A DNA stretch of 64,000 bases from Treponema sp. (GTDB taxonomy: Bacteria; Spirochaetota; Spirochaetia; Treponematales; Treponemataceae): NCBI GenBank assembly GCA_017469785.1, contig JAFUFU010000027.1, positions 96,663-160,662 on the forward strand, written 5' to 3'. The notes under the pieces were generated by a model. It ran no database searches. It saw only the letters and a program-made list of their open reading frames with translations, and was not told the origin of the DNA. Positions 708 to 40,161 of this stretch are shown in pieces (the first letter of the stretch is position 1; every line of letters begins with the position of its first letter). The translations under genes and the position numbers were made by a program.

Positions 708-2003
708 ATGCGAAGAAATTTCATAGAAAAACTGATTGAATGGAAGGAAAGCCCGAATCGTAAGCCTCTTGTTCTCTGGGGGGCCAGGCAGGTCGGAAAA
801 ACATGGCTGCTCAAAGAATTCGGTAAAACTTGCTTTGAGAATGTTCTCTATATTTCATTTTATAACAATAAAAAAGACTCTGACCTTTTTGAAAGGGATT
901 ATGACACTAAACGCATACTTGGTGCACTTGAGATTCAGCATCACATAAAAATCCTGCCTTCTAAGACTCTCATTATTTTTGATGAAATTCAGGCGGCACC
1001 TAAAGTCCTTGAGTCGCTGAAATATTTTTGCGAGGAGGCCAGTGAGTATGCACTTGTCGCCGCCGGTTCTCTTCTTGGGGTAAGCATTCATGAGGGCTTG
1101 TCTTTTCCCGTGGGAAAGGTAAATGAACTCCGCCTTTTTCCCATGACTTTTTCTGAATTTTTGCTGGCTTTGGGAGAAGAAAATCTTGCGAGGCTAATCG
1201 AAGAAAAAAATCCTGAAAATCCCTTGATTTCTGATTTGAGGGAAACATTTATTCCTTTTTTACGGGATTACTATTTTACTGGTGGAATGCCTGAGGCTGT
1301 CCTTGCTTTTGTTGAGAGCCGTGACTATGACAAGGTTCGAAGTGTGCAGAATGATATTATCAGTCAGTATGAAGGGGATTTCGGAAAGCATGTGGATTCA
1401 AAAGAGCTGCCGAGAATCCGCATGGTATGGAATTCCCTTCCTATGCAGCTTGCAAAAGAAAATAAAAAATTCTTTTTCGCTCAGATAAAAAGCGGCGCAA
1501 GAATGAAAGAATTTGAAATAGCGATTCAGTGGTTGTGTGACGCCGGACTTATTTACAAAGTGCAGAAAGTTTCTAAGCCTGCCATGCCTTTGAAAGCATA
1601 TTCCGTCTTTTCAGATTTTAAGATTTACCTGAATGACATCGGGCTTTTAGCTGCCCTCAGCGAACTTGATAAGGACAGCATTATAAGCGGAAATGATGTT
1701 TTTGTGGAATTCAAGAGTGCCCTTACGGAACAATATGTGCTTCAGGAGCTTAAAGCCATGACTTCATACACGCCATATTATTACTCAGGGGAAAAATCGA
1801 CTTACGAGGTGGATTTCTTGATTCAACAAGGAAAATTAATCGTTCCTCTTGAAGTAAAAGCCGAGGAGAATGTAAAGGCTAAGAGCCTGAGATTTTTTGT
1901 TGATAAATTCGAGTCTGAGTATGCTGTCCGCACATCAATGTCAAATTATCGAAAAGAAGAATGGCTGACGAATATCCCCCTGTGGGCGGTAAGCGGGGTG
2001 TAG
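708..2003 (+). CDS. AAA-type ATPase of the DUF4143 family
   Basis: This 431-residue protein has an N-terminal P-loop ATPase domain with Walker A GARQVGKT (residues 25-32), Walker B LIIFDEIQ (about 88-95) and a sensor-like AAGS segment near residue 118. The C-terminal DUF4143 half includes a PD-(D/E)xK-like arrangement: D369 in the YEVDF segment, then E382 and K384 in LEVK. Such proteins are common, often isolated or near toxin and restriction genes, and their role is poorly defined. Here the gene stands alone between two interspersed repeats and has its own leaderless-type promoter and a terminator hairpin downstream, which fits a cassette-like accessory gene. The ATPase call is firm. Nuclease activity is only inferred from the motif. 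Confidence 0.88.
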   Translation: MRRNFIEKLIEWKESPNRKPLVLWGARQVGKTWLLKEFGKTCFENVLYISFYNNKKDSDLFERDYDTKRILGALEIQHHIKILPSKTLIIFDEIQAAPKVLESLKYFCEEASEYALVAAGSLLGVSIHEGLSFPVGKVNELRLFPMTFSEFLLALGEENLARLIEEKNPENPLISDLRETFIPFLRDYYFTGGMPEAVLAFVESRDYDKVRSVQNDIISQYEGDFGKHVDSKELPRIRMVWNSLPMQLAKENKKFFFAQIKSGARMKEFEIAIQWLCDAGLIYKVQKVSKPAMPLKAYSVFSDFKIYLNDIGLLAALSELDKDSIISGNDVFVEFKSALTEQYVLQELKAMTSYTPYYYSGEKSTYEVDFLIQQGKLIVPLEVKAEENVKAKSLRFFVDKFESEYAVRTSMSNYRKEEWLTNIPLWAVSGV

Positions 2004-2010
2004 GAAAATC

Positions 2011-2150
2011 CCTCACAGAGCTTTGGAGGGCACAGAGAGATTCTCCGGGTGGGAAAAATATAAAGCCTCAGTCATGCCTTTTTTTGTGTGACTGAGGCTT
2101 TTTCTTATTATTTTAGAAAAATCTCTGTGCGCTCTGTGCGCTCTGTGAGG
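2011..2150. repeat. Inverted pair of CTCTGTG-type repeat arms
   Basis: CCTCACAGAGCTTTGGAGGG... at 2011-2039 and its inverted relative ending CTCTGTGAGG at 2121-2150 enclose a transcription terminator. The left arm matches 591-618 at nearly every base. The arrangement is palindromic over about 140 bp. Confidence 0.75.
2063..2106. terminator. Intrinsic terminator between convergent genes
   Basis: A perfect 12-bp stem (AAGCCTCAGTCA at 2063-2074 with TGACTGAGGCTT at 2089-2100) is followed by TTTCTT on the plus strand and has an A-rich run on its left side. It could end both the plus-strand ATPase gene and the minus-strand sulP gene. Confidence 0.8.
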
Positions 2151-2168
2151 AATTTATCCATCCGTAAT

Positions 2169-3881
2169 TTACTTCAGAATCTCTCTTGCTCTTTCCAGAG
2201 CTCCTGAGATGTGGTCGTGGATGTTTTCCCGGCCCAGCTTGTCGGCCATGCCTGTTTTTTCAAGGAGCATGTAGGGCTGGGTGTGAATTCCTGAGATTAC
2301 AATGGTGATTCCCTTGCGGTCACAGGCGGCTTTTGCCTGCTCCAGGGCGCGGATTCCGCCGGCGTCAAGGTAGATTGTGCTTCTCATTCGCAAAATCAAG
2401 ACTTTATAATCAACGCCTGCCTTTTCAACGGCGACTTCAAATTTACGCACGGTGCCGAAGAAGAGAGGTCCTTCGATTTCGTAAACCATGGCTCCCTGGG
2501 GAAGGTCTAAGTGTTCTTCAGGCATGTCTGCGGCGTGAATTCCAGATATGAGGGCTTCCCTCTTGTTCTGAACTTCCGACAAATCTATCATCTTTTTAAT
2601 GAAGAAGAAGGCCGCAAGTCCCAGTCCCACTTCGATTGCCACTGTCAAATCCACGAATACTGTGATGAAGAAAGTGACCGCAAATACTGTGGTGTCTGAT
2701 TTCTGACCGTGGACGAGGGAACGGATTGCAGGAAAGCCCGCCATGTTCCATGCCACATTGATTAAAACTGCTGCAAGGGCTGCCATAGGAATATAGGCCG
2801 CGTATTTTCCGAAGAAAAGTAGAATCAAAAGCAGGGTGAGGGCGTGAATGATGCCCGCGACTGGGGTTCGTCCGCCGTTTTTGATGTTTGTGGCCGTGCG
2901 GGCGATTGCTCCAGTGGCCGGAATGCCTCCGAAGAGGGGAGAAGCGATGTTTGCGATTCCCTGACCGATGAGCTCTGTGTTTGAGTCGTGCTTGCCGCCT
3001 GTCATACCGTCAGCGACCACAGCCGAAAGAAGTGATTCGATTGCCGCAAGGACAGCGATTGAGACTGCCGTGGGGAAGAGCATTCGGATTGTCTTTAAAG
3101 AAAAGTCAGGCAGCTGGGGGGCTGGAAGGGTGTTGGGGATTAGGAAATGCTCGCGTCCGTCGGCGAAGGTGCCGATGGTGTCGGTTTTAAGGCCGCAGAA
3201 TTTGTCCAGAAGAATTGAAGCCACGGTGGCCAGAATCAAGACGATGAAGCTTCCCGGAATCTTTTTGATGAATTTCGACCAGATGAAAATGAAAGCGAGG
3301 CAAACCGAAGCCATGATGAATGAATAGACATTAATCGTTGAGGCTGATTTGATGTAAACGATGATTTTCGGCAAAAAGTCGCCCGGCATTTTTGAATATT
3401 CTTCGCCCAAAATCCGCATTGGCTCGGAAAAGTCCGGGGCAAGGCCGAAAAAGTCTCCGATTTGGCCGGCTGCGATGGTGACTGCGATTCCTGCCGTAAA
3501 GCCGGTTACGATTGTATATGGAATGAATTTGACCAAACCTCCCATCTTGAATGCGCCCAAAAGAATCAAAAGAATGCCCGCCATGACCGTGGCCGTTGCA
3601 AGGCCGGAAAGTCCGAAGTGGGCGACGACGCCGTAAACGATAACCGCAAAGGCTCCCGTGGGGCCGCCAATCTGAACTGTGGAGCCGCCGAAGGCTGAAA
3701 TACAGAAGCCCGCGATGATTGCGGTAAAGAGGCCTGCCGCCGGGTTCACTCCCGAAGCGATGGCGAATGCGATTGCCAGCGGAAGGGCGACAATGCCGAC
3801 GATAATACCTGCGATGAGGTCGGAAACAAAGGTGCGAGAATTGTATCCTTTAAGCGAATTAATAAGCTGTGGTTTGAACAT
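2169..3881 (-). CDS. SulP-family inorganic anion transporter with STAS domain
   Basis: This 570-residue membrane protein has the SulP core from about residue 20 to 425: many hydrophobic helices, a GGSTVQIGGPTGAF segment near the N terminus and a GGIPATGAIARTATN segment in the second half. A cytoplasmic STAS domain follows (about 440-555, including the IYLDAGGIRALE loop). SulP proteins move sulfate, bicarbonate or dicarboxylates by symport or exchange; the substrate cannot be told from sequence. The start is ATG at 3881 with AAGG 7 nt upstream. It is transcribed alone, divergently from the binding-lipoprotein gene at 3986. Neighbours give no clue to the anion. Length and domain order are normal for the family. 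Confidence 0.93.
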   Translation of the reverse strand: MFKPQLINSLKGYNSRTFVSDLIAGIIVGIVALPLAIAFAIASGVNPAAGLFTAIIAGFCISAFGGSTVQIGGPTGAFAVIVYGVVAHFGLSGLATATVMAGILLILLGAFKMGGLVKFIPYTIVTGFTAGIAVTIAAGQIGDFFGLAPDFSEPMRILGEEYSKMPGDFLPKIIVYIKSASTINVYSFIMASVCLAFIFIWSKFIKKIPGSFIVLILATVASILLDKFCGLKTDTIGTFADGREHFLIPNTLPAPQLPDFSLKTIRMLFPTAVSIAVLAAIESLLSAVVADGMTGGKHDSNTELIGQGIANIASPLFGGIPATGAIARTATNIKNGGRTPVAGIIHALTLLLILLFFGKYAAYIPMAALAAVLINVAWNMAGFPAIRSLVHGQKSDTTVFAVTFFITVFVDLTVAIEVGLGLAAFFFIKKMIDLSEVQNKREALISGIHAADMPEEHLDLPQGAMVYEIEGPLFFGTVRKFEVAVEKAGVDYKVLILRMRSTIYLDAGGIRALEQAKAACDRKGITIVISGIHTQPYMLLEKTGMADKLGRENIHDHISGALERAREILK

Positions 3882-3949
3882 TTTTGAACCTTGGATAATG
3901 AAAATATGTTGAAAATTATGCTGTTTTTTGCGTTTTTATGCAACAAGCG

Positions 3950-3979
3950 GTGACTTCCCCCTTTATTTTTTGCTATAAT
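3950..3979 (+). promoter_or_regulatory. Promoter of the peptide-binding lipoprotein gene, probably leaderless
   Basis: GTGACT (3950-3955), an 18-nt spacer and an extended -10 TGC-TATAAT (TATAAT at 3974-3979), with 6 nt to the ATG at 3986. No Shine-Dalgarno sequence is present. Confidence 0.65.
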
Positions 3980-3985
3980 TTCGCT

Positions 3986-5899
3986 ATGAAAAATCTCTCT
4001 TCCTTTGCAAGGCACTTTCCCAAAAAAACATTTTTAATCTGTGCAAATCTTTGTAATCTGTGGATTTTCCTCGCTTCTTGTTCCCGTTCCCCCGAAATGA
4101 CTCTTTCAGAGATTGAGGCGGCAAGGGCAAGCGGGGCTAATGAACTGATTGAGAAGACTGTTCACCGCCCGAATTTGACCAATCATTTTGAGACTGGAAA
4201 GGTCGGCGGCACTTACAATGACATCATTATGGGCGACCCCAAGAGCTTCAACATGCTTGTGGCGGAAAAAGACGGAACTACGGCGGGGGTTGTGGCTCCT
4301 CTGGTGCAGTATCTTGCTGACTATGACATCGTGGAGCGTAAGTGGAAGGGGCATATAGCAGATTTTGAGATAAAAATCGATGAAGAGCATAACAAATTGG
4401 ACATGATTTACAGGATTAAAAGTGATGTCTACTGGTCTTTCTACGGAAACGCCAGACCAAAGGTAAAAGTGACCAGCGATGACGTGATTTTCTGGTACGA
4501 TGAGATTCAGGGGGACGAGGAATGTGGCTCCTCTGCCTACAACTCTCAGTTTATGCCCATGGATGACGGCAGTGAGGAGCGGATTACAATCGAAAAAATC
4601 GATGATGCCTCCTTTGTCTTCCATTTTCCCCAGATTGTTGCCGAGCCGGTTTTGCATACCAACATGAATTTCGGCCCCCGCTTTTTGTACAAGGCCGCCA
4701 AGGACAAGGGGGGAGCTGAGGCTGTCAAAAAACTCTTCACCGTTGCCTCTGACCCCAAGGAGCTTCCTTCTTGCGGCCCCTATTTCCTCACCGAATATGT
4801 TCCCGGCCAGCGTCTTTTGTACAAGCGGAATCCTAATTTTTGGGATAAGGACGAGAATGGCGAAAATCATTATTACCCGGAAGAGCTTGTTTTGCAGATT
4901 GTGGGAGACAGTAACACGGCCTATCTTTTGTTCAAGCAGGGGAAAACCGAAAATTATTCCTTCCAGCCCGAGCAGCTTGAGGAAGCTGTAGAGAATGCAA
5001 AAAATGCCCTGACTCCCGACGGCCAGCTTATTCCTGAAAATGCGGGTAAAACCGAGGGTTACACGGTCTTCAACGCGGACGGAGCCATGAACGCTTCCTT
5101 CTGGTCTTTCAATCAGAATCCCAAGAACAAGGACGAGCCTTTTTACAAATGGTTCTGCAAAAAAGAATTCCGTCAGGCAATGAGCTGTCTTCTGAACCGG
5201 GAGAGAATCATTTCCCAGACTTACCGGGGCCTCGCCGAGCCGACTTACTCTTTCTTCCCCAAAGTCAACCGCTATTATAATGAAGATATTATCCTTCAGT
5301 ACCGCTATTCCCATGCCCATGCGAAAAAATTGCTTGAGACGGCAGGATTTTCTCGACATGACGACGGATTTTTGTATGACTCAGAGGGAAACAAGGTCGA
5401 ATTCGATCTGACAATTAACGGAAACGACACGATTTCTTCAGATATCGCCCAGATTATCGTGGACGAGTGCAAAAAGGAAGGAATCACGGTCACGCCCAGG
5501 CCCACGGACTTTCAGAAACTCGTTGACCAGCTGATGACAAGCTACGACTGGCAGAGCATTATCATCGGCTTTGGAGGCGGCTCCATTTTCCCCACTCAGG
5601 GAAGCAATGTCTGGGTCAGCGACGGAAACCTGCATCTCTGGTACCCATTGCAAAAATCCCCTGCCACTGACTGGGAAGCGCGGGTGGACGAGCTTTACCA
5701 CAAGGCCAAGTGTATCGTGGACTACGAGAAAGCCAAGCCTCTCTGGGATGAGTATCAGTCGATTTTCCTTGAAGAGTGCCCGATTATCTATCTTTTGCGC
5801 CGCCGTTCTTTCTACGGCCTGCAAAACCGCTGGGACATGACCAATGTTTACTACGACAATCTAAACGGCGCGGAAACCAACTACCTCTGGCTGAAATAA
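3986..5899 (+). CDS. Peptide ABC transporter substrate-binding lipoprotein (SBP family 5)
   Basis: This is the extracytoplasmic binding protein of the oligopeptide/dipeptide importer encoded downstream. I start at ATG 3986 (637 residues) rather than the in-frame ATG at 3938, because 3986 is preceded at 6 nt by TATAAT and begins a classical lipoprotein signal: basic start, hydrophobic core and lipobox LASC. The mature part has SBP_bac_5 features such as ELPSCGPYFLTEYVPGQ, the YKRNPNFWDKD turn and a QAMSCLLNRERI segment. Family members capture peptides, or sometimes other solutes such as nickel or sugars. The DNA for the signal-peptide core coincides with an AATCTGTG-type interspersed repeat (4036-4070). 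The permeases and ATPases follow, separated by unrelated genes. Confidence 0.9.
   Translation: MKNLSSFARHFPKKTFLICANLCNLWIFLASCSRSPEMTLSEIEAARASGANELIEKTVHRPNLTNHFETGKVGGTYNDIIMGDPKSFNMLVAEKDGTTAGVVAPLVQYLADYDIVERKWKGHIADFEIKIDEEHNKLDMIYRIKSDVYWSFYGNARPKVKVTSDDVIFWYDEIQGDEECGSSAYNSQFMPMDDGSEERITIEKIDDASFVFHFPQIVAEPVLHTNMNFGPRFLYKAAKDKGGAEAVKKLFTVASDPKELPSCGPYFLTEYVPGQRLLYKRNPNFWDKDENGENHYYPEELVLQIVGDSNTAYLLFKQGKTENYSFQPEQLEEAVENAKNALTPDGQLIPENAGKTEGYTVFNADGAMNASFWSFNQNPKNKDEPFYKWFCKKEFRQAMSCLLNRERIISQTYRGLAEPTYSFFPKVNRYYNEDIILQYRYSHAHAKKLLETAGFSRHDDGFLYDSEGNKVEFDLTINGNDTISSDIAQIIVDECKKEGITVTPRPTDFQKLVDQLMTSYDWQSIIIGFGGGSIFPTQGSNVWVSDGNLHLWYPLQKSPATDWEARVDELYHKAKCIVDYEKAKPLWDEYQSIFLEECPIIYLLRRRSFYGLQNRWDMTNVYYDNLNGAETNYLWLK
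4036..4070 (+). repeat. AATCTGTG-type interspersed repeat inside a signal-peptide coding region
   Basis: The string AATCTGTGCAAATCTTTG followed by TAATCTGTGGATTTT matches the intergenic repeats at 13323-13342, 21218-21250 and around 25226-25244. Here it is translated as the hydrophobic core of the lipoprotein signal. Confidence 0.65.
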
Positions 5900-5983: not shown

Positions 5984-6012
5984 TTCCCAAAGTCATTATC
6001 TTGCGGTAATAT
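5984..6012 (+). promoter_or_regulatory. Putative promoter of plsC, probably leaderless
   Basis: TTCCCA (5984-5989), a 17-nt spacer and TAATAT (6007-6012), with exactly 6 nt to the ATG at 6019. There is no ribosome-binding site. Confidence 0.5.
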
Positions 6013-6018
6013 TGAAGA

Positions 6019-6762
6019 ATGTTTACGACAATCATTTCTTTTATCCGAGTGGCGTTTTACATGCTCTCGAAAAATAAACTCCGCCGCCTTGCCCTCAAAT
6101 ATGACAAGGCTGGCGACATCGCTGAGCGCGATAAGGTAGTTTTTGGAATCGTTCCCCAGTGGGCGCGCTTCGTTTTCTCAAAAGTCACAAAATCCACGGT
6201 GGAAGTTATCGGTGAGGAAAAAATTCCCAAAGACCGTGCCGTTGTCTTCATCGGAAACCATCAGGGCAACATGGACATTCCCCTTTTGTTCGGCTTTATC
6301 AATAAGCCCATGACTTTCGTCGCAAAGGCAGAATTGGGCAAAATCCCCCTGCTGGCAGACTGGATGCGGCTTTTGCAGTGTACCTTTATCGAACGAAAAA
6401 GTCCACGTAAGTCCATTCAGGCCATTCACGATGCGGCAGAGGGAGTCAAAAAAGGCTATTCTCAGGTGATTTTCCCGGAAGGAACGCGAAGCAAGGGCGG
6501 CCCTCACCATGAATTCAAGGCCGGAAGCTTCAAACTGGCTTTCATGTCGGCGGCTCCTATTGTTCCCGTGACCATTGACGGCACATGGCGAATCTACGAG
6601 GGGCAAAAAAAAGTCAAAACGGGCCAGCATGTTAAGCTCATAATTCATGACCCAATTGAAACGGCAGGGCTTTCAAAAGAAGAGCAGTCAAAAATTCCTG
6701 AAATGGTTGAAAAAATCGTCTGTGAGCCCTTAAATGAGCAGGCAGGAAGCAGTAATGCATAG
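6019..6762 (+). CDS. plsC: 1-acyl-sn-glycerol-3-phosphate acyltransferase
   Basis: This 247-residue LPLAT-family enzyme acylates lysophosphatidate to phosphatidate in membrane phospholipid synthesis. The HX4D catalytic motif is H81...D86 in GNHQGNMD, and the acceptor-phosphate motif is FPEGTRS (residues 152-158). A hydrophobic N-terminal segment suggests membrane association. The gene overlaps the next one (dppB) by 29 nt, so the two are likely translated from one mRNA despite unrelated functions. It also carries its own TAATAT box 6 nt before the ATG, and may therefore begin a transcript within the peptide-transport cluster. Family assignment is firm; the exact acyl substrate is inferred. 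Confidence 0.92.
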   Translation: MFTTIISFIRVAFYMLSKNKLRRLALKYDKAGDIAERDKVVFGIVPQWARFVFSKVTKSTVEVIGEEKIPKDRAVVFIGNHQGNMDIPLLFGFINKPMTFVAKAELGKIPLLADWMRLLQCTFIERKSPRKSIQAIHDAAEGVKKGYSQVIFPEGTRSKGGPHHEFKAGSFKLAFMSAAPIVPVTIDGTWRIYEGQKKVKTGQHVKLIIHDPIETAGLSKEEQSKIPEMVEKIVCEPLNEQAGSSNA

Positions 6763-24268: not shown

Positions 24269-24297
24269 TTCACTTTTTCCCTCAAATTCGATAGAAT
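24269..24297 (+). promoter_or_regulatory. Putative promoter of tatD, probably leaderless
   Basis: TAGAAT (24292-24297) stands 6 nt before ATG 24304. TTCACT (24269-24274) at 17 nt is a weak -35. No ribosome-binding site. Confidence 0.45.
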
Positions 24298-27002: not shown

Positions 27003-27476
27003 TTAATTTGTGGGGCAGCCGGGGTGTGACGCGCTTGCGCTTGCTGTGTCCTTTTTGAGACCCAGCATCTCCCGCATGGTCCGCCAGCCCAATTCGGCGC
27101 ATTTGACTCTGGCCGGCATGTGCTGGATTGCCTGAAGGCTGCTCGCCTCGTCAAGCTCTTCAATCTCTGCTTCTGTGACGCTTCCCTGAATCATGCCCAT
27201 GAAGATTTCGCAGAGCCGGAGCGCATCTGCCTCGGTTTTCCCGATTATAAGGTCAAGCATCATGTCACAGCTTGCCTGACTGATTGCGCATCCGCTTCCG
27301 GTAAAGGCGCCGTCCAGCACCATGCCGTTTTCTGTTTTTAATTTTAAAGTGATGTTGTCACCGCAGCTGGGGTTCACTCCCTGCAGGGTGAGGTTTGCTT
27401 CTGTAAAGTCACTTTTATGGGCGGGATTTATGTTGTGTTCGTTTAAAATCTCGCGATAGAGTTCTTTTGTTTCCAT
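27003..27476 (-). CDS. sufU: SufU-type iron-sulfur scaffold / sulfur-transfer protein
   Basis: This 157-residue IscU-fold protein has the SufU pattern: NPSCGDNI (first Cys plus Asp), GSGCAISQASCDMM (second Cys) and ARVKCAELGW (third Cys), with the extra segment that distinguishes SufU from IscU. In Firmicutes SufU receives sulfur from SufS and passes it to SufBCD. The Suf machinery is encoded about 5 kb away on the opposite strand (sufC 32036, sufB 33639, sufD 35082), and no sufS is in the window. The gene lies 18 nt after the histidine-kinase gene but has TAATAT 6 nt before its ATG, so it can be transcribed alone as a leaderless mRNA. A strong terminator follows. Confidence 0.92.
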   Translation of the reverse strand: METKELYREILNEHNINPAHKSDFTEANLTLQGVNPSCGDNITLKLKTENGMVLDGAFTGSGCAISQASCDMMLDLIIGKTEADALRLCEIFMGMIQGSVTEAEIEELDEASSLQAIQHMPARVKCAELGWRTMREMLGLKKDTASASASHPGCPTN

Positions 27477-27482: not shown

Positions 27483-27511
27483 ATATTACTCTTTTTATTT
27501 CTTTCGGGGAA
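27483..27511 (-). promoter_or_regulatory. Promoter of sufU, probably leaderless, overlapping the kinase gene end
   Basis: On the minus strand: TTCCCC (27506-27511), a 17-nt spacer and TAATAT (27483-27488), then 6 nt to the ATG at 27476. It overlaps the last codons of the upstream kinase gene. Confidence 0.5.
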
Positions 27512-30995: not shown

Positions 30996-31871
30996 AGTTT
31001 CTGATTTTTCGGCATTTTCTTCGGGAGCGGTCTCTGCCGCTTCTTCTTCTGATTTTTCTTCGTCGGCTTTATCTTCGCCGTTTTCTTTTTCGCTGATTTC
31101 TTCCTTTGGCTTTTCTCGCTTTTTCAGATTCAGTTTTCCTTTTAATGTGAGGATTCCTTTCTCTGAAAGGCTTGCCTTTAGTTTTCCTGTGTAGATTGCA
31201 TTGACTGTTTCAGGCGGCTCGTCTTTTTGAAATCCGTCTATGCTCACTTCTGATTTTTCTTTTTCTTCCGGGCTGCTTTCATCGTTTTCTTCCTTTTTGC
31301 TGGAGTCAGAATCAGCGTTTTCTGCATTTTCTGCCGTATTCTCGCTTTCCTTTTCCTTTAGCTTGATGAAAAATCCCTGAGGAATGTAGATTTCGCCCTT
31401 TTCATCGCTTTCGATTCGGTAGGAATTTTCCCGGTGGGTAAAAGTTATCGTTGTTTTTTTGTCGTCCTGAGTGACAGAAAGTCCGTCGGTGCTTACCGAT
31501 TCTGGATTTGCCAGGGCAAAGAGACAGAGGGCATAAAGACCTTTGGGAATGAGGAAGCTTTTCGTGCTTTTGTCGAAGAAGGCTTCCCTTAGATTTTTTG
31601 TGCTGTGGACTTTTGATGCTCCTGAAAGCGCGTCAAAATAATCTCTGTAGGCTGCGGATGAATTGCTCCAGACCAAATGATTTTTGGGATTGGCCTTTTT
31701 TGTGTCCAGAAGAAAATCGACCTTGAAAAAATCTTTTTTGATTTCGCTTTCTTGCTGTGAGCCGGCAGTTTCTTTTGAGTCGTTTTTGTCTTTCTTTCCC
31801 AGTGAAAAAATCTGTGGCACTAATAGAAAAAAAATGAAAAAAATACAAATTTTTTTGCGTCTGAAAATCAT
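30972..31871 (-). CDS. Hypothetical secreted protein with acidic low-complexity C terminus
   Basis: In this 299-residue protein, residues 1-24 look like a signal peptide (RRKK then a long hydrophobic core). The folded-looking part spans about residues 45-170 and includes a LIPKGLYALCLFALANPES segment. The rest is Glu/Lys/Ser-rich and low in complexity, interrupted by a beta-like segment (YTGKLKASLSEKGILTLKGKLNL). I do not recognise a family. The last seven residues (GKGLTQK) and the stop lie inside the terminal inverted repeat of the 129-bp element, so the natural C terminus may have been altered by its insertion. The -10 box lies 6 nt before the ATG. Confidence 0.7.
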   Translation of the reverse strand: MIFRRKKICIFFIFFLLVPQIFSLGKKDKNDSKETAGSQQESEIKKDFFKVDFLLDTKKANPKNHLVWSNSSAAYRDYFDALSGASKVHSTKNLREAFFDKSTKSFLIPKGLYALCLFALANPESVSTDGLSVTQDDKKTTITFTHRENSYRIESDEKGEIYIPQGFFIKLKEKESENTAENAENADSDSSKKEENDESSPEEKEKSEVSIDGFQKDEPPETVNAIYTGKLKASLSEKGILTLKGKLNLKKREKPKEEISEKENGEDKADEEKSEEEAAETAPEENAEKSETGKGLTQK

Positions 31872-31877: not shown

Positions 31878-31883
31878 ATACTA
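31878..31883 (-). promoter_or_regulatory. -10 box of the secreted-protein gene, leaderless layout
   Basis: TAGTAT on the minus strand, exactly 6 nt before ATG 31871. The -35 (TTAAAC at 17 nt) is weak. Confidence 0.4.
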
Positions 31884-32000: not shown

Positions 32001-32029
32001 TTGTCCAAAGTGCGGAAATTCAGTATATT
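32001..32029 (+). promoter_or_regulatory. Promoter of the suf operon, probably leaderless
   Basis: TTGTCC (32001-32006), a 17-nt spacer and TATATT (32024-32029), then 6 nt to ATG 32036. There is no ribosome-binding site between. Confidence 0.65.
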
Positions 32030-32035: not shown

Positions 32036-32776
32036 ATGGCTAATTTACTTGAAATCCAAAACCTTAATGTTGATATAGAAAAAAAACACGTCATTGACGG
32101 CGTGAATCTCGTGGTAAATCCCGGCGAAACCCATGTCCTTATGGGGCCAAACGGCGCGGGAAAATCCACCCTGGGCTACACAATCATGGGAAATCCCCGC
32201 TACACTGTGTCTGGCGGTAAGATTTTCTTTGACGGCGAGGACATCACCGAGCTGGGGGCGGACAAGCGGGCTGCCAAAGGCATTTTCCTTTCTTTCCAGG
32301 CTCCCCTTGAGGTTCCGGGCATTTCTTTGGAATCATTTATCCGCACGGCCTTGCAGCAGAAGACCGGCGAGCGGGTCAAACTCTTCCAGTTCCAGAAACA
32401 GCTCAAGGAAACCATGAAGCTTTTAAACATGGATGAAAGCTATGCCAGCCGAGACCTGAACGTGGGATTTTCAGGCGGCGAGCGAAAAAAGAGCGAAATC
32501 TTGCAGCTTCTCATGCTTTCCCCAAAACTCGCCATCCTTGACGAGACTGATTCCGGCCTTGACGTGGACGCGGTTCGCACGGTCTCAAAGGGAATCGAAG
32601 AGTACCAGAAGCGCATGAACGGCGCCCTTATCATCATCACCCACTCAACGAAAATCCTTGAAAGCCTTAAAGTTGACAAAACCCATGTGCTGGTCAAAGG
32701 CAAAATCATCAAGGAAGGTGACGGCTCTCTTGTAGAAGAAATCAACGAGAAGGGATTCGAGCAGTTTATAAATTAG
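32036..32776 (+). CDS. sufC: Fe-S cluster assembly ATPase SufC
   Basis: This 246-residue ABC-type ATPase has Walker A GPNGAGKSTLG (residues about 38-48), the SufC-specific signature FSGGERKKSEILQL and Walker B LAILDETDSGLDVDAV. SufC works with SufB and SufD in the cytoplasm to build Fe-S clusters. It leads the group but is separated from sufB by about 170 bp of repeats and an unrelated DNA-glycosylase gene. The stop codon (AAT TAG) is part of an AATTAGCAGTTAGGAA repeat word. Confidence 0.97.
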   Translation: MANLLEIQNLNVDIEKKHVIDGVNLVVNPGETHVLMGPNGAGKSTLGYTIMGNPRYTVSGGKIFFDGEDITELGADKRAAKGIFLSFQAPLEVPGISLESFIRTALQQKTGERVKLFQFQKQLKETMKLLNMDESYASRDLNVGFSGGERKKSEILQLLMLSPKLAILDETDSGLDVDAVRTVSKGIEEYQKRMNGALIIITHSTKILESLKVDKTHVLVKGKIIKEGDGSLVEEINEKGFEQFIN

Positions 32777-33638: not shown

Positions 33639-35048
33639 ATGGCAGAAAAGGAAAAACTTGACATAAAAAGCATGGCAGATTCTCCCTACGACTTCCGCTA
33701 CGAGGAGAAGGGCTTTTACCGCAACAAGGCCGGCCTCACGCCGGAAATCGTCGCAAAACTCTCCGACGACAAGAACGACCCTGACTGGATGAGGCTTTTC
33801 CGCCAGAATGCGCTTAAAATCTACAACGAGCTGAGCGTTCCTGAGTGGGGACCGGACATTTCAGGGCTCAACATCGACGAAATCGCAACTTACGTGCGCC
33901 CAAACACGAAAATGCAGGGCAAATGGGAAGATGTTCCCGATGACATTAAAGACACTTTTGAAAAGCTGGGAATCCCGGAGGCAGAGCGCACTTCTCTTGC
34001 TGGTGTGGGCGCCCAGTATGACTCTGAGCTTGTCTACCACAACTTGCAGGAAGAGGTGGCCAAGCAGGGAGTCATTTACACTGATTTTGAAAGCTCTCTC
34101 CGCGGCCCTTATGCCGACATGGTAAAAGAGCATTTTATGCAGCTGGTAAAGCCAGATGACCACAAATTCGCGGCCCTGCACGGGGCAGTCTGGTCTGGCG
34201 GCTCTTTCGTTTATGTTCCCAAGAATGTAAAGGTTGAAATCCCCCTGCAAAGCTACTTCCGCTTGAACGCGAAAGGGGCCGGCCAGTTCGAGCACACCCT
34301 CATTATCGTGGACGAAGGCGCTGACCTGCACTTTATCGAGGGCTGCTCGGCTCCAAAATACAATGTGGCAAATCTTCATGCCGGCTGCGTCGAGCTTTAT
34401 GTAAAAAAAGGCGCCCATCTGCGCTACTCAACCGTGGAAAACTGGTCTAAGAACATGTACAACCTCAACACCAAGAGGGCGCGTGTAGAAGAGGGCGGCT
34501 CAATCGAGTGGGTCTCAGGCTCTTTCGGAAGCCACATTTCCTATCTTTACCCCCAAAGCGACTTGATTGGCCGGGGAGCCAGGGCTGAATTCACTGGCGT
34601 TACTTTTGCCGGCGAAGGACAGAACCTTGACACGGGAGCCAAAATGGTTCACATCGCCCCTCAAACGACGAGCGTAATCACCACGAAATCTCTCTCAAAA
34701 TCCGGCGGCATCTCAACTTACCGAAGCGCAATCTACATCGGAAAAGAGGCAAAGGGCAGCAAGGCCAGCGTTTCCTGCGAGAGCCTTATGCTTGACAACA
34801 TTTCCCGCAGCGACACCATTCCAGCCATGGACATTCACACTGACGACTGTGACGTTGGCCACGAGGCAAAAATCGGCCGAATCTCAAACGATGCGGTCTT
34901 CTATTTGATGAGCCGGGGAATCTCTGAGGAAGAGGCAAGGACAATGATTGTATCGGGATTTGCAAATCCTGTCTCAAAAGAGCTTCCCCTTGAATATGCC
35001 GTTGAGATGAACAATCTGATTCGCCTTGAGATGAAAGGTTCGCTGTAA
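33639..35048 (+). CDS. sufB: Fe-S cluster assembly protein SufB
   Basis: This 469-residue scaffold component has conserved stretches including PEWGPDISGL, the beta-helix core with KAEFTGVTFAGEGQNLDTGAKM, and the C-terminal TDDCDVGHEAKIGRI containing the key Cys. The RGISEEEARTMIVSGF segment is shared with SufD. With SufC and SufD it forms the SufBC2D complex. The ribosome site AAAGG overlaps the end of the upstream alkD-like gene. Length matches other bacterial SufB. Confidence 0.97.
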   Translation: MAEKEKLDIKSMADSPYDFRYEEKGFYRNKAGLTPEIVAKLSDDKNDPDWMRLFRQNALKIYNELSVPEWGPDISGLNIDEIATYVRPNTKMQGKWEDVPDDIKDTFEKLGIPEAERTSLAGVGAQYDSELVYHNLQEEVAKQGVIYTDFESSLRGPYADMVKEHFMQLVKPDDHKFAALHGAVWSGGSFVYVPKNVKVEIPLQSYFRLNAKGAGQFEHTLIIVDEGADLHFIEGCSAPKYNVANLHAGCVELYVKKGAHLRYSTVENWSKNMYNLNTKRARVEEGGSIEWVSGSFGSHISYLYPQSDLIGRGARAEFTGVTFAGEGQNLDTGAKMVHIAPQTTSVITTKSLSKSGGISTYRSAIYIGKEAKGSKASVSCESLMLDNISRSDTIPAMDIHTDDCDVGHEAKIGRISNDAVFYLMSRGISEEEARTMIVSGFANPVSKELPLEYAVEMNNLIRLEMKGSL

Positions 35049-35081
35049 AGCGCAATTCATAATGTGGAATGAGGAATGACT

Positions 35082-36176
35082 ATGACAGAAACACTGAAAT
35101 TTAACGAAATAAATAAAATCCCCGCCCTTACATGGAACTGGCTCAAAATGAACCGGGATTCCCTTGAATTGCGGGAAATTCCCTCTCTCTTTGAACCTAA
35201 AATCTCTGAAATCCCGGAAGGCTTTTCCCTGCTTTCTGGGCAAAAAATCGATTTGAACAAATTCCCTGCCCTCAAGTCAGGAATCGGAGAAGAAATTTCT
35301 TCCTATCTTGAAGAAAATGTCTTTAAGGGAGTTGACCAGATTATCGAAATCAGCGGCAAAACCGAAAATCCCCTTCTTCTTCCCTTTGATTACGGAAAAG
35401 CGGGAAATTCTGATTCAGTCTCTCCTCATTTTGCTTCGTCTCAAATCATCTATGCAAAAAAAGATTCTGAAAGCTGCGTGATTTTCCTTTATGAGGGAGC
35501 TGATTCTTCAAAAATCGACTCGATTATCCGCACAAAAATCTATGCCGAAGAAAATGCCCTTGTGCATGTCATAAAAGTCCAGCTTTTGGGAAAAAACCAG
35601 AATCAAATAGATGAGACGAGCGCTGTCGCCGGAGAAAATTCTAAGATTCACTTCACTCAGATTGAGCTTGGCGGAAATCACATTGATTCAGGCTTGTACA
35701 CCCAGCTTGGCGAATACAAGTCCCGTTTCCAGAGCGAGCTTGCTTTTATCGCAAAGGGGGAGCAGCATTTTGATTTTAACCACGCAGTCATCCACACTGG
35801 CAGCGAGACTGACACGAAAATGCTGGTAAAGGGAGTTCTGGACGGAAATGCCGTTAAAAATTACCGTGGCACCATTGATTTTAAGAACGGCTGTCATGGC
35901 TCTACTGGCGACGAGCAGGAAGAGACTCTCCTTATGAGCAAAAGTGCCGTCAACAAGTCGATTCCCATGATTCTCTGTGATGAAGAAGATGTTGCCGGAA
36001 CCCACGGTTCTACTTTGGGACGCTTGGGCGCGGACGAACTCTTTTACATGCAGAGCCGGGGAATCAGCGAGGAAGAGGCCAAAAAAATGATGACCAAGGC
36101 AAAAGTCCTGAGCGTGGCAAGCCTCATCCCTCTGGAAAATATTCGGGAAAAAATCGAAAACTGGCTCGAAAAATAG
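35082..36176 (+). CDS. sufD: Fe-S cluster assembly protein SufD
   Basis: This 364-residue paralogue of SufB has the C-terminal hallmark VAGTHGSTLGRLGADELFYMQSRGIS, including the conserved His. GAGG lies 7 nt before ATG 35082, which I prefer to the ATG two codons earlier (35076). SufD completes the SufBC2D complex and is implicated in iron acquisition. The short gap from sufB contains a degraded repeat word (AATTCATAATGTGGAATGAGG). No sufS or sufE follows. Confidence 0.93.
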   Translation: MTETLKFNEINKIPALTWNWLKMNRDSLELREIPSLFEPKISEIPEGFSLLSGQKIDLNKFPALKSGIGEEISSYLEENVFKGVDQIIEISGKTENPLLLPFDYGKAGNSDSVSPHFASSQIIYAKKDSESCVIFLYEGADSSKIDSIIRTKIYAEENALVHVIKVQLLGKNQNQIDETSAVAGENSKIHFTQIELGGNHIDSGLYTQLGEYKSRFQSELAFIAKGEQHFDFNHAVIHTGSETDTKMLVKGVLDGNAVKNYRGTIDFKNGCHGSTGDEQEETLLMSKSAVNKSIPMILCDEEDVAGTHGSTLGRLGADELFYMQSRGISEEEAKKMMTKAKVLSVASLIPLENIREKIENWLEK

Positions 36177-36196
36177 AAAAACTCTCCCTTTTATGA

Positions 36197-36202
36197 TATA
36201 AT
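36197..36202 (+). promoter_or_regulatory. -10 box before the nitrilase-fold gene
   Basis: TATAAT ends 12 nt before ATG 36215 and gives a very short leader. The -35 is unclear. Confidence 0.4.
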
Positions 36203-36214
36203 CTTTCGGTCTCT

Positions 36215-37597
36215 ATGATGAATTCAATATATAATATTGTATCAGATTTATGTTCTTTCGTTATAAAATCTTGCAGCGAGGATTTTTTTGTTAAATACAG
36301 CTGTATTTCTGAAAGTGAAAAAAAACGTATCAATATGCTGGTCCGCTCTCATGTTGGAGGCCTTTTTCTTTCCGAAAATCAGGTCGCCCAGCTTTCCGAA
36401 GAGGATTTTACCGAAGATTTTTTTGCGGAATTAAAAAAGCTGATTGAAGACTTGACATCAAAAAATGATTTCTTTGCAATCGTCGCTCTGGTTCAGATTC
36501 TCGATGAGAGCCTTGCCAGCCTGCTCAAGGTAAAAATCGCCGAATTTCAGGAAGATGATTTTTCCGTTGTTCTCAATACGAACCGGGAGACAACAGGAAT
36601 AGGTCTTTTGCCCCGCTGTTCCTGCATTTGGGAGCGAAAGCACCGCCTTTCCCACAGCTATAACCGCATGGACAACTTTTTGTTCAACATGCTGCTCATG
36701 GAAAATTCCATTCTGGGCGAGCTGATTGACAAGCATTTTTTCATCAAGAGCAATCTTTTTACCGATTTCTCAAAAAAGAAAGCCCTCAAAATCGCGGCAA
36801 CGCCACTTCGACTTGAGCGGGAATTTGATGTTCAGCCCTATGACGAGGATAAAGTCCAGTATTTCAAGATTTCCTATACAAAAGATTCTTTCAAGTCTGA
36901 CAATGAGCTTATCTGGAGCAAAATCATAACCGCGGCGCAGAATAAAAGCGACATCATTGTTTTCCCGGAAATGCTGGGCAACCCCGATATGGTCGGCTTT
37001 ATCACCCGGAAACTCAAGGAACTTTCACCAGGAGAGAGGGAATCAATTCCTTCACTGATAATCCTTCCCTCATTCTGGGAAAAGAACCGCAACACCGTGA
37101 CTATCCTCGACAAATACGGGGAGCTTATCTGCCGCCAGAGCAAGCAGAATCCCTTCCGCGTTGAGCAGAACGGCACCGGGTATCTCGAAGGCATCTTGTC
37201 CAGCCTTGTGGTGAATATTTTTCACTTTGAGGGAATCGGCCGTATCGCGATTCTGATTTGCAAAGACTTCCTTACCACAAAATACATGGAACAGCTCATG
37301 CGATGCTTTAAGCTCACCCTGATTATCGTTCCTTCATTCTCTACGGGCTCTTATGATTTCCGCCAGTCATTCGATTTGTGCGCCCATGATGACTGCAATG
37401 TCGTCTGGATTAATACCTGCGCTGCCCTTGAAAAAGGAAAGGAAAGCAATTTCAAGAACATCGGCTATGTCCGGAAACGAATTTCCCGCAACGATGACGA
37501 GGCGCAGCGTCTGTCAAGAATGCCGATATGTGAGGGAGCCTTTTCAGGACGCTGTGTCCATGACTGCCTCTATTATGAGACCATAAGCGGAGTCTGA
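36215..37597 (+). CDS. Nitrilase-superfamily (C-N hydrolase) protein with an unrecognised N-terminal domain
   Basis: In this 460-residue protein, residues about 215-450 have the nitrilase fold with a readable catalytic triad: E252 in VFPEML, K310 in RQSKQNPFR and C349 in LICKDF, each preceded by a hydrophobic strand. Nitrilase-family enzymes hydrolyse nitriles, amides or carbamoyl groups, or serve as glutaminase domains. The first 200 or so residues are helical and acidic, and I do not recognise them. There is no signal peptide. A Nudix hydrolase follows after 1 nt. The pair could process a nucleotide-derived amide, but this is speculation. No transmembrane or secretion feature is seen. Confidence 0.8.
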   Translation: MMNSIYNIVSDLCSFVIKSCSEDFFVKYSCISESEKKRINMLVRSHVGGLFLSENQVAQLSEEDFTEDFFAELKKLIEDLTSKNDFFAIVALVQILDESLASLLKVKIAEFQEDDFSVVLNTNRETTGIGLLPRCSCIWERKHRLSHSYNRMDNFLFNMLLMENSILGELIDKHFFIKSNLFTDFSKKKALKIAATPLRLEREFDVQPYDEDKVQYFKISYTKDSFKSDNELIWSKIITAAQNKSDIIVFPEMLGNPDMVGFITRKLKELSPGERESIPSLIILPSFWEKNRNTVTILDKYGELICRQSKQNPFRVEQNGTGYLEGILSSLVVNIFHFEGIGRIAILICKDFLTTKYMEQLMRCFKLTLIIVPSFSTGSYDFRQSFDLCAHDDCNVVWINTCAALEKGKESNFKNIGYVRKRISRNDDEAQRLSRMPICEGAFSGRCVHDCLYYETISGV

Positions 37598-37598
37598 C

Positions 37599-38159
37599 AT
37601 GAAATTTAAAAGCATCAAGAAAATCCTCGAGGGAAAATTTATCAGTCGCTATGACATTCAATACGAAACTCCCAGCGGGAAAATCAAAAATTATGAGATG
37701 ATAAGCCGCAACAAGAATATAAATTCTTTTGAGGAGCTCCATGATGGCAAAGTAGATGCTGTCGTAATGATTATGCATGACAAAGATAATGAGCATGTTC
37801 TCTTAAGCCGGGAATTCCGCATGGCACCGGGGGAGTGGGTTTATAATTTCCCGGCCGGTCTCATTGATAAGGGAGAGGACGCCGCTTCTGCCGCAAGCAG
37901 GGAACTTCGTGAAGAGACGGGCCTTCATCTGGATCATATCGAAGAGATTTGGATGGAGAGCTATTCTGCCGTGGGCTTTTCCAACGAAAAAAATATCTGC
38001 ATTGTTGGCACGGCCTCTGGTGAGATTTTACCCAGCGATTCTGAGCTTGAAGAAATCGAAGCTTACTGGTATTCAAAGGCAGAAGTCCGAGCTTTGTTAA
38101 AGGTTGCGAGATTCGCGGCTCGCACCCAGGCCTACTGCATTCTCTGGAGCAAGAACTGA
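37599..38159 (+). CDS. Nudix hydrolase, ADP-ribose pyrophosphatase-like
   Basis: This 186-residue protein has a complete Nudix box, GLIDKGEDAASAASRELREE (about residues 87-106, then TGL), preceded by SREFRMAPGEWVYNFPAG, a pattern typical of ADP-ribose/nucleotide-sugar pyrophosphatases. It cleaves a nucleoside diphosphate linked to another moiety; the true substrate is unknown. The gene starts 1 nt after the nitrilase-fold gene with CGGAG before ATG 37599, so coupling is likely. Confidence 0.9.
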   Translation: MKFKSIKKILEGKFISRYDIQYETPSGKIKNYEMISRNKNINSFEELHDGKVDAVVMIMHDKDNEHVLLSREFRMAPGEWVYNFPAGLIDKGEDAASAASRELREETGLHLDHIEEIWMESYSAVGFSNEKNICIVGTASGEILPSDSELEEIEAYWYSKAEVRALLKVARFAARTQAYCILWSKN

Positions 38160-38168
38160 AACTTACTC

Positions 38169-38197
38169 TGCAATTTTTCAGCGAACTGTGATATAGT
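38169..38197 (+). promoter_or_regulatory. Promoter pointing to ATG 38204
   Basis: TATAGT (38192-38197) sits exactly 6 nt before an ATG at 38204, with a CTGCAA-like -35 about 17 nt upstream. That ATG opens a frame of only seven codons before TAA 38225-38227, in phase with the phosphatase gene. Confidence 0.5.
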
Positions 38198-38248
38198 ATT
38201 TATATGGCAAGATTCAGAAAAATATAAGTCATCACAAAAAAACTGGCC

Positions 38249-39820
38249 GTGGCAATTCTCATGGCTGGTTTCATGCTCTGTTCTCTTATGGCTTTTGTCG
38301 GACACAGGATTTTTTCCAGACAGTTCCGCATCCAATATGACAGCAATATTCGTGCAATCGCCTCCGCCGCAAGGGAATGCCTGAATCCTGATGATTTTGA
38401 AAACTACATAGCTACGTGCCGGCCAGATTCGGCTTACGAAGGCGTTCAGAAAATTCTTCAGGATTTCGTTGACAAATTTGACTTGAACATGCTTTATGTC
38501 TCTTATGTGGAGCCGCCGGATTATTCAGAAATCACTTATATCTATAATCCTGTGATGAAAGGCGGGAGGTGGAGTCAGTTTCCCCTTGGCTATCATGAAA
38601 AATATATCGAGCCGAACTACAACAAGACGGCAAAACTTGTCTTTGAAAAAGGCGAGACAATCGTGCGGCATACGGTCAAGACACGCAGCGGTTCCCATAT
38701 TACGGCCATGGTTCCGGTTTATGATTCAAAGGGCAGGATTGTCGCTGTTCTTGGCGCTCAAAAGTCAATTCAGGAATTCGTGGATTCCCTTCATTCCTAC
38801 ATGCGCGATATTCTTATCCTTGAATTCATTTTCGCCGCCGTTTTTTTCCTGCTTTTTACCCTTTACTTCAATTTATCTTTCATACGTCCGCTTTCGCTGA
38901 TAACCCACGAGACAGATCATTTTGCGTCCTACGGCGGTGAGCCTTCCGATATGCTGCTGACCATCAAGAATCAGGATGAAATCGGAACCCTTGCTCATTC
39001 CGTGCACCAGATGGAACTTGATGTTTGCGACAATATTGAAAAACTTACAAAAATCACGGCCGAACAGGAAAGAATCAGCACGGAGCTGAATGTGGCCACA
39101 AAAATCCAGCGAGAAATGCTTCCGCTCTTATATCCGCCTTTTCCTGACCGCTCTGATTTTGATTTGTATGCTTCCATGACCCCTGCAAAGGAGGTTGGAG
39201 GCGATTTGTACGATTACGTGCTTCTTGATGACGACCATCTCATGATTGTTGTCGGTGATGTTTCCGGCAAGGGCGTTCCTGCGGCTCTTTTCATGGTTAT
39301 CGCAAAGACTCTGCTTTCTTCCCATGGTGAGGAAGGTCTTTCTCCGGCGGAAATCTTCAATGTAACCAACAGCCAGCTCTGCAAGGGAAACGAAACAGGG
39401 TTGTTTGTAACCTGCTGGCTGGGAATATTGACGTTCAGCACGGGTGAGCTCCGTTTTGTCAATGCGGGGCATCCCTATCCAGTGGTATTCCATGACAATG
39501 AGGTCTCATATCTCAAGACCCGCCCTAATCTTGTCCTTGCAGGAATGGAAGGCATGCGCTATGCCGAAAACTCTATCACGCTTGCAAAGGGCGACAGGAT
39601 TTTTATCTATACCGACGGCGTTACAGAAGCCACAAACAGCAAGAAAGAGCTTTTTGGCGACGAGCGTCTTTTAAATGTACTCAAGAATACCTTGCATCTT
39701 GATGCGCCCAAGACACTTGAAGCGGTTCAGTCTGCGATTAATGAATTCGTTGGAGAAGCCGAGCAGTTTGATGATATTACGATGCTTGATTTTATTTGGC
39801 AGGAGAGATCTCCCCTGTAG
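38249..39820 (+). CDS. PP2C/SpoIIE-type serine phosphatase with sensor and HAMP; N terminus interrupted
   Basis: Domain order is TM1 (about 3-21 of this 523-residue frame), an extracytoplasmic sensor of about 160 residues, TM2 (about 190-213), HAMP (about 213-265), a short coiled coil (ELNVATKIQREMLP) and a SpoIIE/RsbU-type PP2C domain with metal-site motifs EVGGDLYDY, VGDVSGKG and FDDITML. RsbU-like phosphatases control anti-anti-sigma factors. The natural start is probably ATG 38204 (MARFRKI), 6 nt after a TATAGT box, but TAA at 38225 follows in the same frame. GTG 38249 and ATG 38261 are fallback starts with no ribosome site. It may be a recent pseudogene, a sequencing error, or a reinitiating gene. 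Confidence 0.8.
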   Translation: MAILMAGFMLCSLMAFVGHRIFSRQFRIQYDSNIRAIASAARECLNPDDFENYIATCRPDSAYEGVQKILQDFVDKFDLNMLYVSYVEPPDYSEITYIYNPVMKGGRWSQFPLGYHEKYIEPNYNKTAKLVFEKGETIVRHTVKTRSGSHITAMVPVYDSKGRIVAVLGAQKSIQEFVDSLHSYMRDILILEFIFAAVFFLLFTLYFNLSFIRPLSLITHETDHFASYGGEPSDMLLTIKNQDEIGTLAHSVHQMELDVCDNIEKLTKITAEQERISTELNVATKIQREMLPLLYPPFPDRSDFDLYASMTPAKEVGGDLYDYVLLDDDHLMIVVGDVSGKGVPAALFMVIAKTLLSSHGEEGLSPAEIFNVTNSQLCKGNETGLFVTCWLGILTFSTGELRFVNAGHPYPVVFHDNEVSYLKTRPNLVLAGMEGMRYAENSITLAKGDRIFIYTDGVTEATNSKKELFGDERLLNVLKNTLHLDAPKTLEAVQSAINEFVGEAEQFDDITMLDFIWQERSPL

Positions 39821-40142
39821 AGTTTTTGAATCTTAAATTCACAAGTGCCTTTGAAAGCGCTTCGTTTATGGCGGAGTGGACTGTTTCGCTGACAATCTCA
39901 ACTTGTGATGCAGACAATTTGTCTTCCCGGATGCTGGTTTTAAATAAATCAGATGCGGGAACTGACAATGCTTTTGCAATTTGATAGATTAAATCAAAGG
40001 ACGGTTTCGTGATTCCACATTCAATGTTGCCGATTGTTCCGTTTGAGACATTGCAAAGCTCCGCCAGCTGTGCTTGGGAAAGTCTCGCGCGTTTTCTGTA
40101 AAACTTCATGTTTTGAATAAAGTTCGCCTGAAATTCAATCAT
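39792..40142 (-). CDS. XRE-family HTH transcriptional regulator
   Basis: In this 116-residue protein, residues about 10-66 form a Cro/C1-type HTH (MKFYRKRARLSQAQLAELCNVSNGTIGNIECGITKPSFDLI). The C-terminal 50 residues are helical and may dimerise. It converges on the phosphatase gene and overlaps its 3' end by 29 nt. A perfect palindrome (40145-40161) overlaps its -10 box and is a candidate autoregulatory operator. Targets other than itself are unknown. Confidence 0.88.
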   Translation of the reverse strand: MIEFQANFIQNMKFYRKRARLSQAQLAELCNVSNGTIGNIECGITKPSFDLIYQIAKALSVPASDLFKTSIREDKLSASQVEIVSETVHSAINEALSKALVNLRFKNSTGEISPAK

Positions 40143-40144
40143 AC

Positions 40145-40161
40145 TATCATTATGAATGATA
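40145..40161 (-). promoter_or_regulatory. Palindromic operator candidate overlapping the -10 of the XRE gene
   Basis: TATCATT-ATG-AATGATA has perfect 7-bp arms. The minus-strand -10 CATAAT (40149-40154) is inside it and ends 6 nt before ATG 40142, again a leaderless layout. Confidence 0.5.

Follow-up and report, generated by a model that had tools for sequence, protein, structure and literature searches.

A 64,000-nucleotide stretch of a Treponema sp. genome (assembly GCA_017469785.1, contig JAFUFU010000027.1; hereafter the window) carries, directly upstream of several genes, -10-like promoter hexamers that end at a fixed distance from the start codon. An earlier note had listed nine first genes with such a hexamer 6 nucleotides (nt) before the ATG, together with two 5-nt cases, and had proposed that leading genes in this organism are systematically transcribed as leaderless mRNAs, i.e. 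mRNAs that begin with the start codon. On re-reading the sequence, we found an ATG exactly 6 nt beyond the end of each of the nine hexamers; the spacing of the two 5-nt cases (53396 and 57196) also reads as described. The sites and their associated elements are as follows (bp, base pairs; TGn, the extended -10 element).

673..678, plus strand: -35 TTGTAT, 17 bp from the -10 of the gene at 708; TTGTAT, TTGTAA or TTGCAA is found in relatives L041-L045 (compared by eye)
696..701, plus strand: -10 TATAAT, 6 nt before ATG 708 (AAA_14/DUF4143 ATPase, Pfam)
708..2003, plus strand: gene with a predicted leaderless mRNA, whose +1 would be the A of ATG 708
3974..3979, plus strand: -10 TATAAT preceded by TGC, 6 nt before ATG 3986 (solute-binding protein, SBP_bac_5)
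6007..6012, plus strand: TAATAT, 6 nt before ATG 6019 (acyltransferase); a weak site with two mismatches, A at -1 and neither TTG nor TGn
24292..24297, plus strand: -10 TAGAAT, 6 nt before ATG 24304 (TatD-type DNase)
27483..27488, minus strand: TAATAT, 6 nt before ATG 27476 (NifU_N); two mismatches, gene 18 nt behind the upstream gene
31878..31883, minus strand: -10 TAGTAT preceded by TGC, 6 nt before ATG 31871 (no Pfam match)
32001..32006, plus strand: -35 TTGTCC, 17 bp from the -10 of the gene at 32036
32024..32029, plus strand: -10 TATATT, 6 nt before ATG 32036 (ABC ATPase, which we take to be SufC)
38192..38197, plus strand: -10 TATAGT preceded by TGA, 6 nt before ATG 38204 (where a SpoIIE-domain protein would be expected to begin; codon 8 is TAA)
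40149..40154, minus strand: CATAAT, one mismatch, 6 nt before ATG 40142 (HTH_3 protein)
53396..54187, plus strand: 5-nt case, outside the 6-nt class; its phosphoribosyltransferase match is weak and below the Pfam cut-off
57196..58047, plus strand: 5-nt case, operon-internal, 6 nt behind the upstream gene

The other promoter elements at these sites are unevenly distributed. The claim that several sites have a fair -35 at 17-18 nt held for 708 and 32036, both at exactly 17 bp, and the sites of 3986, 38204 and 31871 have the TGn of an extended -10 instead of a -35, giving five of the nine listed sites with one or the other; neither TTG at 17 bp nor TGn was found at 6019, 24304, 27476 and 40142. 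Three of the nine hexamers (TAATAT twice and TAGTAT) differ from TATAAT at two positions. With that tolerance, the ATGs of the window showed 77 hexamers at 6 nt, compared with a mean of 85.6 at distances of 15-49 nt, and two-mismatch hexamers are therefore no evidence by themselves. When all window ATGs on both strands were counted, we found 9 hexamers with at most one mismatch at 6 nt versus 9.5 expected, and 3 exact TATAAT versus 0.7 expected. Thus, the argument that the fixed spacing is unlikely to arise by chance is weak for the window alone, and the test was moved to the gene starts of a larger sample, where it did hold.

This sample comprised the window and 40 other stretches, together 860,662 bases or 27% of the 3.24-Mb source genome, which is assembled in 63 contigs. 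We called 681 genes and used the 631 that encode at least 100 amino acids and have a known neighbour. All 930 in-frame ATG candidates of these genes were counted, so that no choice of start was needed. A -10 site was defined as TATAAT with at most one mismatch unless stated to be exact, with distances measured from the end of the hexamer to the ATG; a strict matrix threshold had collapsed to exact TATAAT, and one-mismatch counts were used in its place. Two motif searches were set aside: a first single-motif run converged on GGAG, and a two-component mixture placed nearly every start into one of its two motifs, an overcount whose percentages we discarded. An Rfam scan at the gathering threshold returned three tRNAs only.

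Counting in this sample, along the lines that the earlier note had called for over the genome, revealed a peak. One-mismatch sites were found 54 times at 6 nt (Poisson P ~5e-18), 31 times at 7, 12 times at 8 and 14 times at 9, against a baseline of 12.6. Exact TATAAT occurred 21 times at 6 nt, 8 times at 7 and 3 times at 8 (baseline 1.4), whereas out-of-frame ATGs (n = 493) showed zero exact sites at 6-8 nt. The signal was confined almost entirely to ATG, exact sites at 6 nt being present before 21 of 930 ATG, 1 of 240 GTG and 0 of 431 TTG candidates. Across the whole genome, the pattern TATAATN6ATG occurred 92 times versus 12 for its reversed form, which served as control in all genome pattern searches. 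The 5-nt class did not emerge, with 5 sites in the sample versus the same 12.6 expected.

In total, the excess at 6-9 nt amounts to 60.5 genes, or 9.6% of the 631. It depends on gene context: the one-mismatch excess was 18.6% for divergent genes (178), 10.8% for same-strand genes whose upstream gap exceeds 100 nt (169), 7.2% for those with a gap of 31-100 nt (113) and 0.6% for genes at most 30 nt behind a same-strand gene (171), a pattern that follows the first or single genes of transcription units. The distance itself is fixed, the 6-nt spacer placing the first T of the hexamer at -12. Nevertheless, the statement that leaderless initiation is systematic for leading genes is too strong, as the excess reaches only about 19-21% of the divergent genes and about 8-11% of the same-strand genes in the >100-nt class, and many other leading genes (60 of 132 divergent and 61 of 128 same-strand genes in the latter class) carry a Shine-Dalgarno-like tetramer.

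Bacterial transcription usually starts at the seventh base after the -10, so a spacing of 6 nt is the closest that leaves the whole AUG in the transcript, and a pyrimidine followed by A is a usual start context. We looked at features that had not been used to find the sites. Among the 96 sites at 6-8 nt, TTG was present at a spacer of 17 in 20 cases, with 4 at 16 and 3 at 18, and at any other spacer between 10 and 26 in at most 7. TGn preceded 34 of the 96, compared with 32 of 386 background hexamers. As a class, these sites have the anatomy of sigma70-type promoters, with a -35 at about 17 bp or a TGn. Pyrimidines occupied -1 at 47 of the 54 sites with a 6-nt spacing, versus 55-57% at 12-60 nt, and at 22 of the 31 sites with a 7-nt spacing; in the 92 genome-wide matches, chance ones included, the base at -1 was C in 35, T in 31, A in 20 and G in 6. 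Promoter-like sites, i.e. a -10 with -35 or TGn, were found in the 313 leading genes once at 0-5 nt, 19 times at 6, 12 times at 7 and twice at 8, and in all 631 genes 8 times at 0-5 nt (4 of them at 5), 37 times at 6 and 18 times at 7. Finally, a Shine-Dalgarno-like tetramer was detected at 2 of the 96 sites versus 265 of 508 other chosen ATG starts, and as a class the sites lack a Shine-Dalgarno sequence before the start codon. That -35, TGn and the -1 base all fall in register argues that the sites are promoters whose +1 would lie on the ATG.

Using the same pipeline, we did not observe a 6-nt peak in 65 Firmicutes loci (617,078 bases, 449 genes; 3 at 6 nt versus 11.8 expected). Loci of other Treponema species (158 loci, 384 genes) gave 67 at 6 nt versus 9.1 expected, a percentage that is inflated, since many of these loci had been fetched for the genes in question. 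Pattern searches were then summarised for the phylum in a table of 296 genomes, 135 rows of which were summed. TATAATN6ATG exceeded its reversed form in the own genus (2200 vs 618, 28 genomes), in other genera of the family (1200 vs 568, 20 genomes), a ratio no higher than in some Firmicutes, and in the same order (413 vs 201, 10 genomes). It also outnumbered its reversed form in families f13 (331 vs 87, 12 genomes), f10 and f11 together (215 vs 44, 5 genomes) and f25 (6387 vs 4295, 29 genomes), and showed no enrichment in f7 (1210 vs 1191, 31 genomes). In twelve individual spirochaete genomes, the ratio ranged from 1.75 (G042) to about 20. Ratios near 2 say little, because seven Firmicutes genomes, a group without the peak, gave 1.3-2.6.

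Conservation in relatives provides a further view of the individual sites. The nearest named relatives of the 708 protein are from Treponema assemblies, several of them from the rumen, with the best match 95% identical. Upstream regions were compared by eye for 37 of 80 homologous loci, 12 of them spirochaete. A -10-like hexamer lies exactly 6 nt before the ATG in all six closest spirochaete relatives (L041-L046), five more distant spirochaetes have TANNNT at 6-7 nt, and L047 has a Shine-Dalgarno sequence. The 22 Firmicutes rows show G-rich Shine-Dalgarno-like stretches (weak in L063). Among the other rows, a Fibrobacteraceae homologue (L049) differs from the Firmicutes rows in that TATATT was seen by eye 6 nt upstream of its ATG.

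Two further observations concern this gene. Homologues of the ATPase at 708-2003 occur in many rumen bacteria, and relatives about 54-66% identical are found in Firmicutes, Fibrobacteraceae and Riflebacteria, many from the rumen, which suggests that the gene has been exchanged between phyla. Next to its -35, a block like TTCGTCGGAATAATTG (659-675) is kept in L041-L045, and L046 carries TTTTCCGACGAATA at this place, a partly inverted form of the block (both by eye); the block is a possible operator.

For tatD (24304), 30 rows of the genus, our own included, were compared: a -10-like hexamer lies at 6-7 nt in 19 and at 9 nt in 3, and the other 8 have neither. Of these 8, five carry a Shine-Dalgarno-like tetramer, and two have no more than a TAAATT at 5 nt. 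In the case of sufC (32036), the 30 rows divide into 14 with the hexamer at 6-7 nt, 2 with it at 9 nt and 14 with a Shine-Dalgarno sequence in its place. The sufC start codon has moved, three codons upstream in one row and two codons downstream in nine, and in each of these 10 rows TATATT keeps its distance of 6 nt to the relocated ATG. On the sufC protein tree, the leaderless label (16 rows, including the two 9-nt rows) required 4 changes versus 10 when shuffled, and at least three of the four are forced by well-supported branches. The four closest relatives of 3986 for which the 5' end of the gene is available behave similarly, with the hexamer at 6 nt in L215, L212 and L213 and at 7 nt in L214 and the start shifted by 0, 1, 1 and 2 codons, respectively; more distant relatives are mixed, several of them Shine-Dalgarno-led. 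Taken together, the leaderless arrangement predicted for 708, 3986, 24304 and 32036 is well supported by their relatives.

The remaining sites are less uniform. For 31871, a TANNNT lies 6 nt from a plausible ATG in three of seven homologues (L257, L258 and L262), with no clear TANNNT at 6 nt in the others, and for 38204 one lies at 6-7 nt in 8 of 18 relatives with a 5' end (all by eye). Promoter anatomy and these relatives support a leaderless arrangement at both genes. The genes at 31871 and 32036 are divergent and have in common a 164-bp intergenic region in which each has a -10 at 6 nt. ATG 38204, behind the TGATATAGT promoter, opens the peptide MARFRKI, followed by TAA. Many relatives read through the 38204-38249 point, their sequence there resembling R-I-P-V-I-T-K-K; in this assembly the frame is thus broken at codon 8, and despite the stop ATG 38204 would be the expected N-terminus of the SpoIIE-domain protein. 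In-frame stops in homologues of 38249 were considered and rejected: in 9 realigned loci a stop was found only in L269, beyond the end of the query. G039 gave no match above 51% identity to 38249.

CATAAT is a plausible -10 for the HTH_3 gene at 40142. An inverted repeat, TATCATT-CAT-AATGATA (40145-40161, minus strand), was noticed by eye to overlap this -10 and is possibly a self-operator of the gene. Neither 27476, which the earlier note had listed as a first gene, nor 57196 looks like one, as they lie 18 and 6 nt behind a same-strand gene. The hexamer of 27476 is operon-internal and probably fortuitous, and chance is the likely reading for both. Leaderless starts at 27476, 57196 and 53396 are thus unsupported, the first two because of their operon position, and 53396 because the 6-nt arrangement was not seen in its family (relatives L181-L210). 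In several of the 53396 relatives, a T-rich tract together with a TATA(T/A)TGTGA-like element was seen by eye immediately at a probable GTG start that lacks a Shine-Dalgarno sequence.

We consider it highly likely that these sites are sigma70-type promoters that set +1 at the A of the AUG and produce leaderless mRNAs beside GGAG-led initiation; the peak at 6 and 7 nt, the elements in register, the missing Shine-Dalgarno sequences and the conserved spacing all point this way, and this part of the original proposal stands without its claim of generality. In our best reading, the share of genes with leaderless mRNAs would be about 10% overall and about 20% among divergent leading genes, which is common and not systematic. 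The -10 would end 6, sometimes 7 and rarely 8 nt before the ATG in about a tenth of genes, RNA polymerase would start on the A so that the mRNA begins with AUG, and ribosomes carrying initiator tRNA would recognise this 5' AUG directly, without a Shine-Dalgarno sequence. Translation from the 5' AUG is suggested by the sufC relatives, in which the start codon and the -10 move together. Over evolution, single genes appear to switch between the leaderless and the GGAG-led mode.

Chance in AT-rich intergenic DNA, which yields TATAAT-like hexamers near ATGs, would account for part of the list, as the one-mismatch count in the window illustrates. As an explanation of the class it is very improbable given the 54 sites versus 12.6 at the gene starts of the sample, the absence of exact sites at out-of-frame ATGs and the register of -35 and -1 base. 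Hardly more credible is that the AT-rich element acts in translation, as an S1-binding or unstructured standby site, with transcription starting further upstream. The accessible part of PMC5397173 does consider S1 binding as a further source of AT-rich bias at -20 to -10, but a translational signal predicts no -10 with TGn, no -35 at 17 bp and no pyrimidine at -1, and the sites lack the Shine-Dalgarno sequence as well.

Two other alternatives keep the promoters and change the transcript. Promoter-like sites 20-60 nt upstream are common, and transcription could proceed from one of these with a leader, the proximal -10 being minor or condition-specific; since 94 of the 96 sites lack a Shine-Dalgarno-like tetramer, such a longer mRNA would lack one too, and we regard this as improbable. 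Very short leaders of 1-5 nt, rather than none, are unlikely in our view, if slightly less so. The 31 sites at 7 nt and the 9-nt subclass described below speak for them, whereas with a 6-nt spacing transcription would ordinarily start on the A, and the pyrimidine preference at -1, at both 6 and 7 nt, disfavours a start at -1.

Some observations weigh against direct starts on the AUG as a general property of the sites. About one quarter of the one-mismatch matches at 6 nt is the chance expectation, the window count of 9 versus 9.5 shows no excess, and our gene calling was home-made, all in-frame ATGs having been counted nonetheless. Exact TATAAT at 6 nt occurred three times in the class at most 30 nt behind a same-strand gene, versus 0.1 expected. 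The low count at 5 nt in Treponema does not decide the matter because the Firmicutes loci are also short at 5-9 nt, and the Firmicutes ratios mean that the reversed pattern is not a neutral control. In addition to the selective fetching of the other Treponema loci, one genome of the same genus (G001) showed no excess at all (53 vs 61 reversed).

The sites at 9 nt may form a class of their own. The codon before the ATG is ATT in 5 of 14 of them versus 55 of all 930 candidates, a feature noticed after the fact. In 98 genomes of the genus, including our own, TATAATN7TTATG occurred 671 times versus 241 reversed, and the base before TTATG was A in 63 of 99 tallied matches. The corresponding backgrounds are 24-28% in NTTATG generally, 35% (55 of 157) for start candidates whose ATG follows TT (binomial P 7e-9) and 38% (18 of 48) where TATAAT lies 12-59 nt away. 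Examples include L157, L164 (sufC), L143 and L145 (tatD). It is as if transcripts of this class started on the A of ATT, placing AUU before AUG, and as if the AUU, or a fixed 3-nt AUU leader, took part in initiation; AUU itself may even be the start codon. Read on the opposite strand, ATTATG is the -10-like CATAAT, and two of the five cases in our sample are divergent, so that paired divergent promoters could add to the ATT signal. A second leaderless register (TATAAT, six bases, ATT-ATG), within a labile dual system that swaps initiation modes and relocates start codons, remains a tentative and rather doubtful proposal.

If leaderless initiation is as frequent as estimated, annotation that relies on a Shine-Dalgarno sequence could misplace the start of about 230 genes of this genome (9.6% of those of at least 100 amino acids, scaled from the sample), and the position of the -10 would be an almost base-exact predictor of the start codon in a rumen genus known largely from metagenome assemblies. 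Relatives that differ in mode, as for sufC and the 708 ATPase, are natural matched pairs for studying the effects of leaderless translation, and also allow one to ask how genes move between both modes.

A search of open-access titles and abstracts found no study on leaderless mRNA in Treponema. The word leaderless is absent from the accessible text of a Borrelia transcriptome paper (PMC10319736) and appears in that of PMC12687308 and PMC1397820 only in a reference title or a general remark. Leaderless genes have been computed in many phyla, Spirochaetes included, for which 6 of 18 genomes and a mean of 3.9% (1.8-6.9%) were given (PMC3160421, in the portion available; the word Treponema is absent from its main text). 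As here, a TA-like signal lies about 12 bp upstream in those genes; our figure of about 10% of genes of at least 100 amino acids was obtained by another method and is only roughly comparable. In Leptospira interrogans, of the same phylum, differential RNA sequencing placed transcription starts on the start codon for 184 genes at 30 C and 170 at 37 C, and about 440 genes have a leader below 10 nt (PMC5243855, as far as accessible). Many start sites thus lie on the start codon there too; they were mapped, whereas ours are predicted from sequence, in a rumen genus, with promoter anatomy and relatives as evidence. The closest parallel in layout is Deinococcus-Thermus, in which, according to the accessible part of PMC12340547, a TANNNT -10 next to the open reading frame drives leaderless mRNAs beside GGAG-led genes. 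Unlike there, a -35 TTG at 17 bp or a TGn falls in register at our sites, and the central positions of the hexamer carry information as well. Leaderless initiation itself is a known minority mode of starting protein synthesis; in this rumen Treponema genus it seems to be widely used and labile in evolution, making a frequent and well-resolved further case, and the AUU-AUG variant is a possible new twist.

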